From assembly GCA_012729785.1 (NCBI GenBank), contig JAAYCL010000001.1, positions 74,737 to 138,736 on the forward strand: a stretch of 64,000 nucleotides of DNA, in the 5' to 3' direction. Within the stretch, counting starts at the first letter, position 1; the number at the start of each line of letters is the position of its first letter. The stretch comes from Chlamydiota bacterium (GTDB lineage Bacteria > Auribacterota > Tritonobacteria > UBA1439). The notes under the pieces were generated by a model, which saw only the letters and a program-made list of their open reading frames with translations, was not told where the DNA came from and made no database searches. Made by a program: the position numbers and the translations under genes. This document shows, piece by piece, positions 2 through 64,000 of this stretch.

Positions 2-787
2 GGCGACGCGGCGCCGGAATTCCGCGCGACGACGAAGGAGCTCAAGGAGATGCGCCTCTCCGACTTCCGGGGGAAGGTGAAGGTGATCACCTCGTTCCCC
101 TCGATCGACACCCCGGTCTGCGACCTCCAGGTGAAGGAGTTCAACGCGCGCGCGGCGGAGCTCGGCGTCGGGGTGGCGGTCGTCGGGATCAGCAAGGACC
201 TCCCGTTCGCCCAGCATCGTTTCTGCGAGACGTTCGAGATCGCGAACGTACAGCTGCTCTCCGACTACCTCCACTCCTCATTCGGCCTGAACTACGGCCT
301 GCTCGTCAAGGAGCTGAATCTCCTGGCGCGCGCCGTGCTCATCGTGGACGCAGGCGGCGTCCTGCGCTACCTCCAGGTGGTGCCCGAGATCGCGTCCCCG
401 CCGGACTACGACGAGGCGCTCGCCGCCCTCCGAGAGGTGTTGAAGTCGCCCGGCGATCCGTCGAAGGCGGCGCCCGCCCCCCGGTGCGTCCCGTGCGAGG
501 GCGGCGTCCAACCGCTGCCGCCGGGGGAGGCCGCCTCCCTCGCGGCGGGCATGCCGGGATGGGGGATCGTCGAGGGAACGCGGCTCGTCCGCGACTACGC
601 ATTCGGCGACTACCGCGATGCGGCATATTTCGTCGACCTCGCCGCGGCGTTGGCGGAGGAGCAGGGGCACCACCCCGTGCTGACGCTCTCCTGGAACAAG
701 GTCGCGGTCTCCCTCACGACGCACGCGGCGGGCGGGCTCACGCGAAACGACTTCACGATGGCCGCCCTCCTCGACCAGCTCCTCTAG
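2..787 (+). CDS. Thiol peroxidase (Tpx-type peroxiredoxin) fused to 4a-hydroxytetrahydrobiopterin dehydratase (PCD), 5' end cut by window
   Basis: The reading frame is open from base 2, before the internal ATG at 50, and begins GDAAPEF, which matches the start of Tpx proteins; the true start lies left of the window. Numbering from Met50, the peroxidatic Cys24 sits in PSIDTPVCD and the resolving Cys59 in FAQHRFC, the spacing expected for an atypical 2-Cys Tpx reducing peroxides with thioredoxin. After about residue 140 a second domain begins at CVPCEGG and carries the PCD signature: GHHP (His207, His208), TH (His225) and GLTRND. PCD recycles the pterin cofactor of aromatic amino acid hydroxylases. 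Each domain has its family's usual length, so this is a clean end-to-end fusion. The TAG stop abuts the inverted end of the following transposon. Confidence 0.9.
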   Translation, partial: GDAAPEFRATTKELKEMRLSDFRGKVKVITSFPSIDTPVCDLQVKEFNARAAELGVGVAVVGISKDLPFAQHRFCETFEIANVQLLSDYLHSSFGLNYGLLVKELNLLARAVLIVDAGGVLRYLQVVPEIASPPDYDEALAALREVLKSPGDPSKAAPAPRCVPCEGGVQPLPPGEAASLAAGMPGWGIVEGTRLVRDYAFGDYRDAAYFVDLAAALAEEQGHHPVLTLSWNKVAVSLTTHAAGGLTRNDFTMAALLDQLL

Positions 788-816
788 TGGGGTCAGGTCC
801 TTATTTATTATACTAG
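787..816 (+). repeat. Left terminal inverted repeat of RAYT element 1
   Basis: These 30 bases, starting gtggggtcaggtcc, recur in inverted orientation at 1864-1893 with only two mismatches. They bracket the transposase at 902-1867. The repeat starts on the last base of the upstream peroxidase stop codon, so the element sits directly behind that gene without breaking it. Confidence 0.85.
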
Positions 817-901: not shown

Positions 902-1867
902 ATGTCCAGGCCCCAGAGGATCGAATACCCCGGCGCGCTCTATCACGTGACAAGCCGCGGCAACGAAAAGGGAGCCATCTTCTGGGAGGACAGGGACAGG
1001 CGCAAATTCCTGTCGCTGATCGACGCCGCGCATCAGCGCTATGAGATCCTGCTCCACGCCTATCTCCTCATGCCGAATCATTACCACCTGCTGATCGAAA
1101 CCCCCCGGGGGAACCTCGCCAGGGTGATGCACGATCTGAACGGAGTCTACACGGGGTACGTGAACGCCGTCCGGAAGAGGACCGGCCACCTGTTCCAGGG
1201 GCGCTACAAGGCGATTGTGGTGGAGAAGGACCGGTACCTCCTCGAACTGTCGCGGTATATACACCTCAACCCCGTGCGCGCGGGGTTGGTGAAACTGCCC
1301 GGACAGTACGCGTGGAGCGGGGTGCACTACCTCCTGGGCGCCGCCGACGCCCCCGCATGGTTCGACGCGGATTTCACGCTGCGTATGTTCGCCGAATCCC
1401 GGCGCGATGCGAGGGCCGCGTATCGCGAATTCCTGCGCCAGGGCCTGGAGAAGAAGAGCCCGCTTGAAGACGTCTACGCGCAGTGCATGCTCGGTTCGAC
1501 GTCGTTCATCGCCGCGGTCAAAAGCGCATGGATGCAGGATGACCGCATCGGCCGGGACGTGGTGCGCGCGAAATCCCTCTCCAGGAAGGCGACCCTCGAC
1601 TCGATCAGGGATCTTGTGGCCGGGGAGGCGGGGCCGAATGAACAGCCGTTTCCCCGCCCCGGGACGCGGAAGGACCATCTCGGCGTGAAACTCTTTATCT
1701 ACTTGGCCCGAAGATACACGGACAAGACCCTGCGGGATATTGCGGACTATTTGGGCTGGATGAACGCAAACGCGGTCTCCCAGGCGCATTTCACGTTCAA
1801 GCGGCGGCTCGAGCGGGACAAAACGATCCAGGCGACTGTCGCCCGGCTCGAGCAGGCGCTGCGCTAG
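902..1867 (+). CDS. REP-associated tyrosine transposase (RAYT, Y1_Tnp family), element 1
   Basis: This 321-aa protein belongs to the HUH/Y1 transposase family that cuts and joins single-stranded DNA. It starts MSRPQRIEYPGALYH and carries the HUH metal motif in MPNHYHLLIE. The presumed catalytic tyrosine lies in LSRYIHLNPVRAG. The C-terminal part (about residues 250-321) looks like a DNA-binding tail. A purine-rich Shine-Dalgarno (gggaagggggggagg) precedes the ATG. The stop codon lies inside the right inverted repeat, as in the second RAYT at 62832-63839. The frame is intact, so the gene may be active. Confidence 0.9.
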   Translation: MSRPQRIEYPGALYHVTSRGNEKGAIFWEDRDRRKFLSLIDAAHQRYEILLHAYLLMPNHYHLLIETPRGNLARVMHDLNGVYTGYVNAVRKRTGHLFQGRYKAIVVEKDRYLLELSRYIHLNPVRAGLVKLPGQYAWSGVHYLLGAADAPAWFDADFTLRMFAESRRDARAAYREFLRQGLEKKSPLEDVYAQCMLGSTSFIAAVKSAWMQDDRIGRDVVRAKSLSRKATLDSIRDLVAGEAGPNEQPFPRPGTRKDHLGVKLFIYLARRYTDKTLRDIADYLGWMNANAVSQAHFTFKRRLERDKTIQATVARLEQALR

Positions 1868-1893
1868 ACTAATAAATAAGGACCTGACCCCAC
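1864..1893 (-). repeat. Right terminal inverted repeat of RAYT element 1
   Basis: Inverted partner of 787-816 (28 of 30 positions). It contains the transposase stop codon. The segment 1857-1894, which includes this repeat, is repeated directly at 1907-1944. Confidence 0.85.
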
Positions 1894-1906
1894 GATGATG
1901 AGCGGA

Positions 1907-1944
1907 CGCTGCGCTAGACTAATAAATAAGGACCTGACCCCACG
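1907..1944 (+). repeat. Extra direct copy of the RAYT right end
   Basis: These 38 bases repeat 1857-1894 exactly, shifted by 50 bp, and so include a second right inverted repeat and the last codons of the transposase. The 12-base segment between the copies (1895-1906) is unique. The copy ends directly against the murJ start codon at 1945. Confidence 0.85.
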
Positions 1945-3498
1945 GTGAGGAGGATTGCGCGGGCGTCGATGCTGCTGGCGGCGGCGAGCGCGGGGTGCCA
2001 CGTCCTCGGGCTGGTCAAGGAGATGCTGATCGCCGGGCAGTTCGGCATCAGCCGGGCGATGGACGCGTTCTACGCCGCCCTCGCGGTCCCGCACGCGCTC
2101 AACAATATCCTCCTGTCGGCGTTCGGCGCCGTCTTCATCCCCGCCTACGTGCGCCACGCCCTCCTCGGCAACGAGGCCGCCGACCGCGTCGCCGCCGCGG
2201 CGCTGCGCCGCCTCGGGCTCATCCTCGCCCTGGCGGCGGCCGCCCTCTTCGCCGGGGCCCCGCTCGTCATCGGGCTCGGATTCCGGGGCCTGCCGCCCGA
2301 CGGGGCGGGGGAGGCGGTCCGGATCCTCAAGGTCGTCGCCTTCACGATGGTGCTGAGCGGGGCGGCGGGGGCCTTGTCGGGCGTGCTCAACGCGCGCGCG
2401 CACTTCTTCTGGCCCGCGGTCTCGCCGGTCCTCGTCACCCTCGTCAGCATCGTCTTCATCGTGCTGGGCGCCCAACGGATGGGGGTGATGGCGCTCGCCT
2501 GGGGCCTGGGCGCGGGACTCCTCGCCCAGTGCCTCGTCCTCGCCGCCGCCGCCCGCCGCGAGGGGTTTCGTCCCGCGTTCCTCGACGCCCGGGGAGAACC
2601 GGCGGTGCGGGAGATGACCGCCGGGGCGCTCCTGCTCATCGTCGGCATCGTCGCGGCGCAGGGGAACGTCCTCGTGGACAGCGTGATGGCGTCGTACCTC
2701 GCCCCCGGCAGTCTCGCCGCGCTCTCCTACGCGGCGAAGCTCGTGATGGTCCCCCTCGTCGTCTTCACCGGATCCCTCGCCACCGCGGCGTTCCCCCACT
2801 TCTCGAAGCAGGCCGCCGGGGGGAGGATCGCGGAGCTGAAGGAGGCGCTCGCGGCGAGCATCCGGATGGCGGGCTTCGTCTTCCTCCCGCTGACGGTCGC
2901 GCTCGTTATCCTGGCGCGGCCGCTGATCGCGCTCCTCTTCCAGCGCGGGGCGTTCGACCGCGAGGCGGCGGAACTGACCTCGGCCATCCTGGCCTGCTAT
3001 GCGCCCCAGATGTTCTTCTGCACGGTCAGCATCCTCCTCGTGCGCGTCCACCTCGCGCTCGACGAGAGGGCCGTGATGGTGAAGGTCGCATTCGCGGGGG
3101 TGGGGATGAACGTCGCCTTCAACCTCCTCTTCATCCGGTTGATCGACCCGCCGGCGGCCGGTCTGGCCCTCTCGACCTCGCTCGTCCAGTGCATCGCGTC
3201 GTGGCTCTTCTACCTGCCGCTGGCCCGCCGCATCGGCGCCTTGCACGCGCAGGACCTTCTCCCGGCGCTGCTCCGCACCGCCTGCGCCTCCGCCGCGATG
3301 GCCGCGGCGATCCTGGCGGCGTCGGCCGCGGCCGGGGCGCGCGGGGCGGGGCCCGTCGCGTGCCTGGCTGTTTCCGCCGCCGCGGGGGCGGTCGTGTTTC
3401 CCGCGGCGGCGCGGCTGCTCGGGTCCACCGAGCTCGACGGCCTGGCGCGCCTCGCGCGGGACGCATGCCGGCTTCGGCGGCCGGGGGGGAGCCGGTGA
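1945..3498 (+). CDS. murJ: Lipid II flippase MurJ (MVF family)
   Basis: This 517-aa polytopic membrane protein moves lipid-linked peptidoglycan precursor across the inner membrane. The N-terminal LGLVKEMLIAGQFG and following DAFYAALAVPHALNNIL match MurJ's conserved first helices, and hydrophobic segments continue over the whole length. The GTG at 1945 is the first start after an in-frame stop at 1915. Upstream sequence is the duplicated RAYT end, so no normal Shine-Dalgarno is present and native 5' sequence may have been lost. The stop overlaps the GTG of the next gene (GTGA). Confidence 0.9.
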   Translation: MRRIARASMLLAAASAGCHVLGLVKEMLIAGQFGISRAMDAFYAALAVPHALNNILLSAFGAVFIPAYVRHALLGNEAADRVAAAALRRLGLILALAAAALFAGAPLVIGLGFRGLPPDGAGEAVRILKVVAFTMVLSGAAGALSGVLNARAHFFWPAVSPVLVTLVSIVFIVLGAQRMGVMALAWGLGAGLLAQCLVLAAAARREGFRPAFLDARGEPAVREMTAGALLLIVGIVAAQGNVLVDSVMASYLAPGSLAALSYAAKLVMVPLVVFTGSLATAAFPHFSKQAAGGRIAELKEALAASIRMAGFVFLPLTVALVILARPLIALLFQRGAFDREAAELTSAILACYAPQMFFCTVSILLVRVHLALDERAVMVKVAFAGVGMNVAFNLLFIRLIDPPAAGLALSTSLVQCIASWLFYLPLARRIGALHAQDLLPALLRTACASAAMAAAILAASAAAGARGAGPVACLAVSAAAGAVVFPAAARLLGSTELDGLARLARDACRLRRPGGSR

Positions 3499-62761: not shown

Positions 62762-62805
62762 CGGCTTCCCCTTGTACTTCTTCAGCCGCACCGGGTTCAG
62801 GTGCA
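62762..62805 (-). repeat. 44-bp remnant of a RAYT transposase
   Basis: An exact copy of 63438-63481, inside the intact RAYT, in the same orientation. It encodes HLNPVRLKKYKGKP, the catalytic-tyrosine-adjacent segment, and is fused directly to the Ig-like fragment. It lies 15 bp outside the intact element. Confidence 0.85.
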
Positions 62806-62820
62806 TAAGCAGCATCGGAG

Positions 62821-62839
62821 TCAGACCTCGACTATTGAC
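62821..62839 (+). repeat. Terminal inverted repeat of RAYT element 2 (3' side)
   Basis: tcagacctcgactattgac, a perfect inverted match to 63869-63887. It contains the transposase stop codon at 62832-62834. Confidence 0.9.
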
Positions 62840-63839
62840 TAAGTTGCTTCTGGAGCTTCTCTATCTGCCTCGACAGGCTCCTGTCTTTCGCCAGCCGCTC
62901 CCTCATGCGCTCGTGCGTGTGCGCCACCGCGTCTCCGCCGATACCCCCCAGCTCGGCCCCGATCCCCTGAAGCGCCTTACCGCTCATGTTCAGCCGATAA
63001 CTCAACTCTATCACCACCCGCCGCGCCTTACGGTGCGGTGAACGCACCAGGAGCAGCTCCGTAGGATTTACTCCATACTCCTCTCCCACCACCCGTGCGA
63101 TTTCCCGCACGGGAACAACCGCCATCAGGGATTTCGCCTGCGGCTGCTCTCTCCTCTGCCACTTCCGCCCGTCGATGAACGTCTTCCTCACCCACTCCGT
63201 GAACTGCTGCGTCCCCAACACTGCACCCGCTTTTGCTTCCCCAAGCGGAGCCGTTACCCCTTTTTGCAATCCCGACAGCACGAACTCCCCGTATCGCCTC
63301 CTCCCCTCCTTCGTGCCCCCACCCATATACCCCAGCACGTCCCCATACGTCACGAACTCATCCCGCTTCCCCAACCCCATGTACCCTCGCAGGCTGCTCC
63401 ACCGGTACTCCTTGAGCAGCTTCGCCTTCTCCTCGATCGGCTTCCCCTTGTACTTCTTCAGCCGCACCGGGTTCAGGTGCACATACCGGCTCAACTCCTT
63501 TAGGTACTCCTCCGCCTCAACCACCACCGCCTTGAACCGCCCCTGGTACAGATGCCCCGCACGGTGGTGCCGCAGATTGTAGTACGCCGTGTAGGCCGTG
63601 TTGAACCGCTGCATGAACCGGCTAAGGTTCGCTTCCTGCGTCCGCAACAAAAAGTGGAAGTGATTGCTCATCAGCACATAGCAATGCACCTCCACCTTGT
63701 ACTGCTCGATGCTCTCTTTGAGCGCTTCCAGGAACCGCATCCGGTCCTTATCGTCCCTGAATATCTCCCCCCGCTCGTTCCCGCGGCTCGTGATGTGGTA
63801 CCACGCACCCGGATATTCGATCCTCAATGGCCTGGCCAT
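62832..63839 (-). CDS. REP-associated tyrosine transposase (RAYT, Y1_Tnp family), element 2
   Basis: 335 aa. Starts MARPLRIEYPGAWYHITSRG. HUH motif in LMSNHFHFLLRT and catalytic tyrosine region LSRYVHLNPVRLKKYKG. The C-terminal half (EYGVNPTELLLVRSPHRKARRV) is probably DNA-binding. It is only distantly similar to element 1 and has unrelated inverted ends. No Shine-Dalgarno; the ATG lies 6 nt after a -10 box. Intact frame. Confidence 0.9.
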   Translation of the reverse strand: MARPLRIEYPGAWYHITSRGNERGEIFRDDKDRMRFLEALKESIEQYKVEVHCYVLMSNHFHFLLRTQEANLSRFMQRFNTAYTAYYNLRHHRAGHLYQGRFKAVVVEAEEYLKELSRYVHLNPVRLKKYKGKPIEEKAKLLKEYRWSSLRGYMGLGKRDEFVTYGDVLGYMGGGTKEGRRRYGEFVLSGLQKGVTAPLGEAKAGAVLGTQQFTEWVRKTFIDGRKWQRREQPQAKSLMAVVPVREIARVVGEEYGVNPTELLLVRSPHRKARRVVIELSYRLNMSGKALQGIGAELGGIGGDAVAHTHERMRERLAKDRSLSRQIEKLQKQLSQ

Positions 63840-63845
63840 ATCCCC

Positions 63846-63873
63846 ATCATACCACCCCCGCCACTTCAGTCAA
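63846..63873 (-). promoter_or_regulatory. Promoter of RAYT element 2, -35 inside the terminal repeat
   Basis: On the minus strand: TTGACT (63868-63873), a 16-bp spacer, TATGAT (63846-63851), then 6 nt to the ATG. The -35 hexamer overlaps the inverted repeat, so the element carries its own promoter. Confidence 0.65.
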
Positions 63874-63887
63874 TAGTCGAGGTCTGA
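63869..63887 (-). repeat. Terminal inverted repeat of RAYT element 2 (5' side)
   Basis: Perfect 19-bp inverted partner of 62821-62839. Confidence 0.9.
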
Positions 63888-63899
63888 TTATATGATAGG

Positions 63900-63970
63900 C
63901 AGCTACCTCCCTGACGCGTTAGCATCGCACTGAGATCGCCCGGTAAGTGGTCTCAGAAAGGAGGTAGCTG
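63900..63970 (+). repeat. Nested inverted repeats before the probable IS110 transposase
   Basis: cagctacctcc (63900-63910) pairs with ggaggtagctg (63960-63970), and inside it ctgaga (63930-63935) pairs with tctcag (63951-63956). The right arm contains the Shine-Dalgarno of the following gene, so the structure could mask translation or be part of the element's end. Confidence 0.6.
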
Positions 63971-63972
63971 GT

Positions 63973-64000
63973 ATGTACTCGATCGGCATCGATCTCCACA
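63973..64000 (+). CDS. Start of probable IS110-family (DEDD) transposase, cut by window end
   Basis: Only MYSIGIDLH is visible. GIDLH near the N-terminus is the first catalytic-Asp motif of IS110/IS1111 transposases, which use a RuvC-like domain and a guide RNA encoded in the element. A strong aaaggagg Shine-Dalgarno precedes the ATG. Nine residues cannot prove the family. Confidence 0.5.

Follow-up and report, generated by a model that had tools for sequence, protein, structure and literature searches.

A probable TIRtron with perfect inverted ends and a DnaA-like transposase tail in a Tritonobacteria genome

The last part of the 64,000-nucleotide stretch of Tritonobacteria DNA analysed here (the window) carries a unit in which a single gene lies between perfect inverted repeats (Table 1). 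We interpret it, with a probability of roughly 0.8, as a TIRtron. It would then be an autonomous transposon that has a single gene, coding for a TIRYT, between its terminal inverted repeats (TIRs); the TIRYT would be a Y1/HUH tyrosine transposase that belongs to TnpA_Y1 subclass 2.1 and ends in a DnaA-domain-IV-like tail. In the accessible text of Di Nocera (2013; PMC3733652), a TIRYT is a RAYT-like gene flanked by long inverted repeats and the TIRtron is the unit so formed; most TIRYTs were later equated with TnpA_Y1 subclass 2.1 (Quentin 2018; PMC6006769). Since the TIRtron has already been named and linked to that subclass, the layout is not the distinct transposon type that a preliminary description of this DNA had proposed. 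As far as the accessible portions of these two surveys go, they named the units and left their movement open. RAYT-like enzymes are, as a rule, described as domesticated. What we add are comparisons bearing on the mobility of the unit and a fuller description of its ends, including a 25-nt consensus.

The focal inverted repeats agree at 20/20 bp with a separation of 1027 nt, and their end-pair score of 20 compares with a maximum of 9-12 in shuffled flanks. They had been described as perfect 19-bp ends: the perfection holds, but the visible match is 20 bp long and forms the core of a longer end. The 5' end carries a putative -35 hexamer whose TTRAC motif belongs to the end consensus of the family. 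Given the position of the putative -10 hexamer just before the ATG, the predicted transcript would be nearly leaderless if this consensus-matched promoter is used. A second TIRtron lies near the other end of the window, and its stop codon falls towards the outside of the 30-nt 3' arm. The earlier statements that both RAYTs of the window are bracketed by inverted ends and that each has its stop codon inside the 3' end are thus borne out; the two had also been called unrelated, which is incorrect, as they are 37-38% identical over their full length. The 3' end of the second TIRtron has undergone a tandem duplication, and comparable duplications of ends are seen in contig C171 of genome G021 (50-bp) and contig C66 of G024 (47-bp).

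Table 1. Features of the two TIRtrons and their immediate surroundings (window coordinates)
Feature	Position	Strand	Remarks
Focal unit	62821-63887		1067 bp, at the end of the window; one gene between perfect inverted repeats
Left (3') terminal inverted repeat	62821..62840	+	TCAGACCTCGACTATTGACT; contains the transposase stop codon (TAG, 62832-62834)
Right (5') terminal inverted repeat	63868..63887	-	same TCAGACCTCGACTATTGACT; upstream of the gene
Transposase gene (TIRYT)	62832..63839	-	335 aa
Putative -35, TTGACT	63868..63873	-	inside the 5' end; promoter role predicted
Putative -10, TATGAT	63846..63851	-	spaced 16 nt from the -35, with 6 nt between it and the ATG at 63839; role predicted
Probable outer extension of the 3' end	62808..62820	+	AGCAGCATCGGAG
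Exact copy of focal transposase interior (63438-63481)	62762..62805	+	44 nt; 15 nt outside the left end
Second TIRtron, 5' end	787..816	+	GTGGGGTCAGGTCCTTATTTATTATACTAG
Second TIRtron, transposase gene	902..1867	+	321 aa
Second TIRtron, 3' end	1864..1893	-	ends 93% complementary (787-816 vs 1864-1893)
Tandem duplication of the second TIRtron 3' end	1850..1949	+	50 bp; extra end copy at 1914-1943

Profile searches with the focal protein recovered the Y1_Tnp domain (PF01797) at residues 12-121 (E=4.6e-14) and the NCBI RAYT model REP_Tyr_transpos (NF047646) at residues 6-126 (E=1.9e-20), the latter scoring 73.3 bits, a little short of the cut-off at 80. The HxH histidines H60 and H62 and the tyrosines Y112 and Y119 show little or no variation among 18 relatives. 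Downstream of this core, a profile search matched DnaA (TIGR00362) at residues 241-333 (E=2.8e-5), and a search of solved structures with the focal protein as single query found DnaA (chain 8btg, residues 238-333, E=3.5e-6) and no Y1 structure. The C-terminal region (residues 238-333) thus resembles DnaA domain IV, a DNA-binding domain. A DnaA_C/HTH-like extension of this kind is a published trait of TnpA_Y1 subclass 2.1 (PMC6006769), and by this extension and the published description the focal protein appears to belong to that subclass.

To place the focal ends in a wider context, we compared the end pairs of 59 distinct RAYT loci from relatives with shuffled flanks. In 46 of the 59 the pairs scored well above the shuffled flanks; the view that RAYTs lack terminal repeats, expressed in the preliminary description, is therefore wrong for the TIRYT group. 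A looser end motif, GGG-[T/A]C[A/G], is found in 41 of these 46 elements, and most surveyed elements have a gene stop that overlaps the 3' end. An alignment of 27 of the long ones yielded the consensus GGGGTCARRYCTTNAMTWTTRACTT; almost no variation is seen in its initial TCA or, counting after GGGG, in the C at position 7 and the A at position 18. In the genome that harbours the focal copy, all well-supported RAYT end pairs except that of locus L009 start with a GGGGTC-type sequence, the focal one being a degenerate form. Other kinds of ends also occur: L029 and L009 have strong inverted pairs that are not of the GGGG type (GGTACTTCGCACACTTTTTACAGTCA; TAGTAGACGTTGTATGCAAC), L037 (G007 C103) has a 35-bp perfect pair without GGGG (AAAAAAGGTGCCAGTCATTGAATATTGACATTTTT), and the RAYT ends of L043 (G012 C27) are about 60 nt long, each being itself an inverted repeat (AATTAGGGACAGGCACTAATTT...).

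The same survey bears on the proposal that the 5' end supplies the promoter. The focal copy does show a good consensus match; across the family, however, a strong -10 matching the -35-like TTRAC is found at 12/40 of the 5' ends vs 4/40 of the 3' ends (p=0.02), which only weakly suggests that an end-borne promoter is a family trait.

Comparisons among close relatives, and of the second TIRtron of the window with its empty counterparts, indicate that TIRtrons move as units. Between genomes G020 and G022, which belong to different genera, an element is 94.9% identical over 1090 bp while its flanks are unrelated, and the match ends a few bases outside the element ends; murJ, the one core gene used as background, is about 67% identical between these genomes in its alignable parts. 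In G021, at least six unrelated 5' flanks are joined to near-identical 5' parts of the element, and contigs break inside it in the manner of collapsed repeats. An internal-deletion derivative with its junction at 626/1019 is present at three sites of the same genome with different right flanks. The second TIRtron (787-1893) is placed between tpx and murJ, two genes that are directly adjacent or overlapping without a TIRtron in G020 and G021. Similarly, in genus g29, from another family, the two genes on either side of a TIRtron are a lepA-like gene and hemW (names that we assigned by reading the translations), and in G040, from the sister genus of g29, these genes are about 95 bp apart without it. 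Both occupied/empty pairs are between-genera comparisons, for which loss in the empty lineage may be an alternative. No base-exact empty site at the strain level was found among the relatives, which are draft genomes in which collapsed repeats break contigs, and the paralogue-based empty sites on contigs C125 and C195 of G021 are too divergent for exact junctions. Neither at the relatives' copies with unrelated flanks nor at the occupied/empty sites was a target duplication evident.

By extension from these relatives, the focal unit is probably a real and mobile TIRtron. The impression of a mobile unit given in the preliminary description is in this way supported through cross-genus near-identity, unrelated flanks, the deletion derivative and two occupied/empty pairs; the further copies and empty sites that it suggested seeking exist in relatives and for the second TIRtron, but the focal copy is the sole full-length member of its subtype in its own genome. 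That description had taken a single copy with flanks conserved in all relatives as the mark of an old fixed gene; here the flanks are unconserved, though the full-length copy is single.

Sequences matching the focal left end are dispersed in related genomes, at 39 places in G021, 20 in G023 and 15 in G022, and reversed-pattern controls were clean (zero matches in 9 of 10 genomes). Among the dispersed ends are REPIN-like hairpins of paired ends, 63-68 nt in length, in G021 and G023, along with longer, MITE-like end pairs in relatives. The focal genome has a solo end and one end pair, 233 nt in length. On contig C36 of this genome (L004, 1497-1738), a MITE-like pair of TIRtron ends encloses about 190 nt of non-coding sequence.

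The reading of the unit as a RAYT that was fixed (domesticated) long ago, the ends of which would be relics or serve regulation only, with the -35 on one side and the stop on the other, seems improbable to us. It would fit the single full-length copy, the report that REPtrons do not transpose as units (PMC6006769) and the g29 TIRtron, which sits at one position in two species, with a partial match over the lepA-like/hemW region in a third g29 genome; a site common to two species implies that this is an old copy. In these two species, however, both ends have been kept identical at 26/26 positions although one alone could act as a promoter, with the immediate flanks at 75% and 63% identity and the gene at 91%. 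The lack of conservation of the focal flanks and the presence of near-identical units across genera and at many sites likewise argue against fixation. Movement of the units could, on the other hand, be passive: the focal unit might be MITE-like or an IS200/IS605 derivative that is moved in trans with the gene as a passenger, in line with the solo ends, hairpins and deletion derivatives and with the several TIRYTs in its own genome. We regard this as very improbable, given that the catalytic residues are intact and that the stop codon is within the end, such that gene and end are inherited together. Moreover, ends match their own gene, the two being near-identical together and diverging together, with a weak Mantel correlation. 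A separate comparison, asking if the inner ends track the C-terminal tail over the N-terminal core, was only weakly positive (partial Mantel r=0.16, p=0.025), and we draw no conclusion from it.

It is also hardly likely that the focal element is a classical IS200/IS605 transposon, with strand-specific single-strand transposition at subterminal hairpins and only incidental inverted repeats. The catalytic superfamily is the same, and a weak 5-bp GTCA/TGAC stem is possible inside one end in some folds; yet folding of the ends gave no structure better than that of shuffled sequence (z between -1.16 and +1.39), the ends consist of long inverted repeats that follow a single consensus, and the likeness to Y1_Tnp is limited to the N-terminal domain, to which a large tail has been added. 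The Y1/HUH catalytic domain and the one-gene unit of about 1.1 kb are shared with IS200/IS605, whereas TIRtrons have TIRs rather than subterminal hairpins and an extra DnaA-like tail; the subterminal hairpins and absence of TIRs that define IS200/IS605 are not what the focal element displays.

With REPtrons and REPINs and their TnpA_REP (RAYT groups 2 and 3; PMC3116915, PMC8266576), TIRtrons share a related Y1 enzyme, inverted paired repeats and short hairpins. They differ from these in that the focal ends are non-palindromic inverted repeats with no GTAG-tagged hairpin and that the TIRtron would move the whole gene unit. The focal copy has both traits of a TIRtron, namely a RAYT-related Y1 gene and long TIRs instead of REPs. 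Agreement with the accessible description in PMC3733652 extends to a RAYT-like Y1 gene between long TIRs, some ends overlapping the gene, to ends that also occur singly and in clusters, and to a GGGGWSAS-type motif in relatives; that motif is given there as common to most, not all, TIRtrons. It is present in close relatives of the focal copy (e.g. G023 C7), whereas the outer ends of the focal copy itself, GGAGTCAG and ATAATCAG, have a degenerate GGGG. Within its accessible part, PMC3733652 does not show that the unit moves, nor does it give empty sites, deletion derivatives or an end consensus as full as the present one. Likewise, the focal element resembles subclass 2.1 of PMC6006769 in the long Y1 protein, the DnaA_C/HTH-like C-terminus and a gene without flanking REPs, and differs in the IS-like dispersal of the unit; all TnpA_Y1 subclasses but one were described there as not associated with typical IS features. 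Among the open-access papers covered by a full-text search, the word TIRYT occurs in PMC3733652 and PMC6006769 only.

Several observations point to mobile ends that are longer than the visible core. The left and right flanks of one element are alike to about 8 nt before the TCA, exceeding the likeness between elements, and 7-12 outer bases are common to related copies; the mobile ends thus extend about 4-12 nt beyond the perfect 20 bp. In the focal copy, the sequence AGCAGCATCGGAG directly outside the 3' end resembles the AGCAGCATCAGGG that related copies carry beyond their own 3' ends and is for this reason probably part of the mobile unit. We also considered the choice of palindromic targets as a cause of the likeness between left and right flanks; however, it is strong over the first 8 nt or so and only weak further out (p=0.018), and longer ends explain most of it.

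Exact tandem duplications abut 20 of 165 ends vs 22 of 1650 control places. They are 9-19 bp in length, with one of 50; in most of them (14 of the 20) the breaks are no more than 1-2 bases from one of the two TCA motifs of TCAGGGTCA and the duplication starts about 10-15 nt outside. This TCA(G) break motif possibly marks the position at which the enzyme cuts. As the related TnpA_REP cleaves at CT and CA (PMC8266576), a cut between C and A in GGGGTCA is a natural guess. Staggered cutting, self-targeted insertion and slippage are candidate origins of the duplications.

On the TIRtron reading, transposition might begin with a nearly leaderless transcript driven by the inward TTGACT of the 5' end. 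The DnaA-like tail would then bind the inner, element-specific part of the end, while the Y1 core would act on the conserved outer TCAGGGTCA, probably at the step between C and A or at TCA(G), where the short end duplications mostly break. The excised unit would join short intergenic targets or genes, a step seen only in its outcome: copies with unrelated flanks, occupied/empty sites and transfer between genera. Internally deleted, short-hairpin and solo-end derivatives, the sequences of which are seen in these genomes, would accumulate as REPINs do around RAYTs and may be mobilised in trans. Cutting, joining and strandedness of the reaction are predicted here from sequence patterns. More tentatively, and at somewhat less than even odds in our estimation, TIRtrons may represent a distinct autonomous HUH class in which a Y1 enzyme with a DnaA-like tail works on true TIRs and cuts at the paired TCA(G) of TCAGGGTCA, where staggered cutting or self-targeting would leave the 9-19 bp duplications, a mode that is undescribed for IS200/IS605 and REPINs. 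Should Y1 enzymes indeed act on true inverted repeats, this would link REPINs with ordinary insertion sequences and hint at a route by which REP-type repeats originated. The occupied/empty pairs and the near-identity across genera make TIRtron mobility directly testable, and concrete substrates are now at hand in the form of the 25-nt end consensus, enzymes paired with their own ends, the deletion derivatives and a set of candidate positions for the cut.

In terms of distribution, the focal end subtype is lineage-restricted: outside the phylum its exact 19-mer gave three single matches in genome_contigs, close to chance expectation, and none in viral_contigs. TIRtron protein queries outside the relatives gave a single distant phage match only. 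Ends of the TIRtron type are seen in 5 of 6 plasmid records examined, including a Pseudomonas aeruginosa record in which two elements have a 32-bp end core; an element probe from P. aeruginosa gave no match in E. coli genomes. At the P. aeruginosa locus (L204, NZ_CP116719.1) the two TIRtrons, with AAAGGGGACAGATTTATTTTCCCTACTCTAAT ends, lie among small nuclease-annotated and hypothetical genes, and the 24-kb record has ten similar places.

Finally, the surroundings of the focal copy deserve comment. The contig stops 113 bp beyond the element and the left flank has no counterpart in the relatives by flank comparison, which puts a focal empty site out of reach. The exact copy of the gene interior beside the left end, which is either left over from a further copy or the product of a duplication in place, indicates that the neighbourhood has itself been rearranged. 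Directly to the right of the element, positions 63888-64000 contain the inverted sequences AGCTACCTCC / GGAGGTAGCT and the start of an ORF (MYSIGIDLH); this is probably the beginning of another insertion sequence at the contig end.
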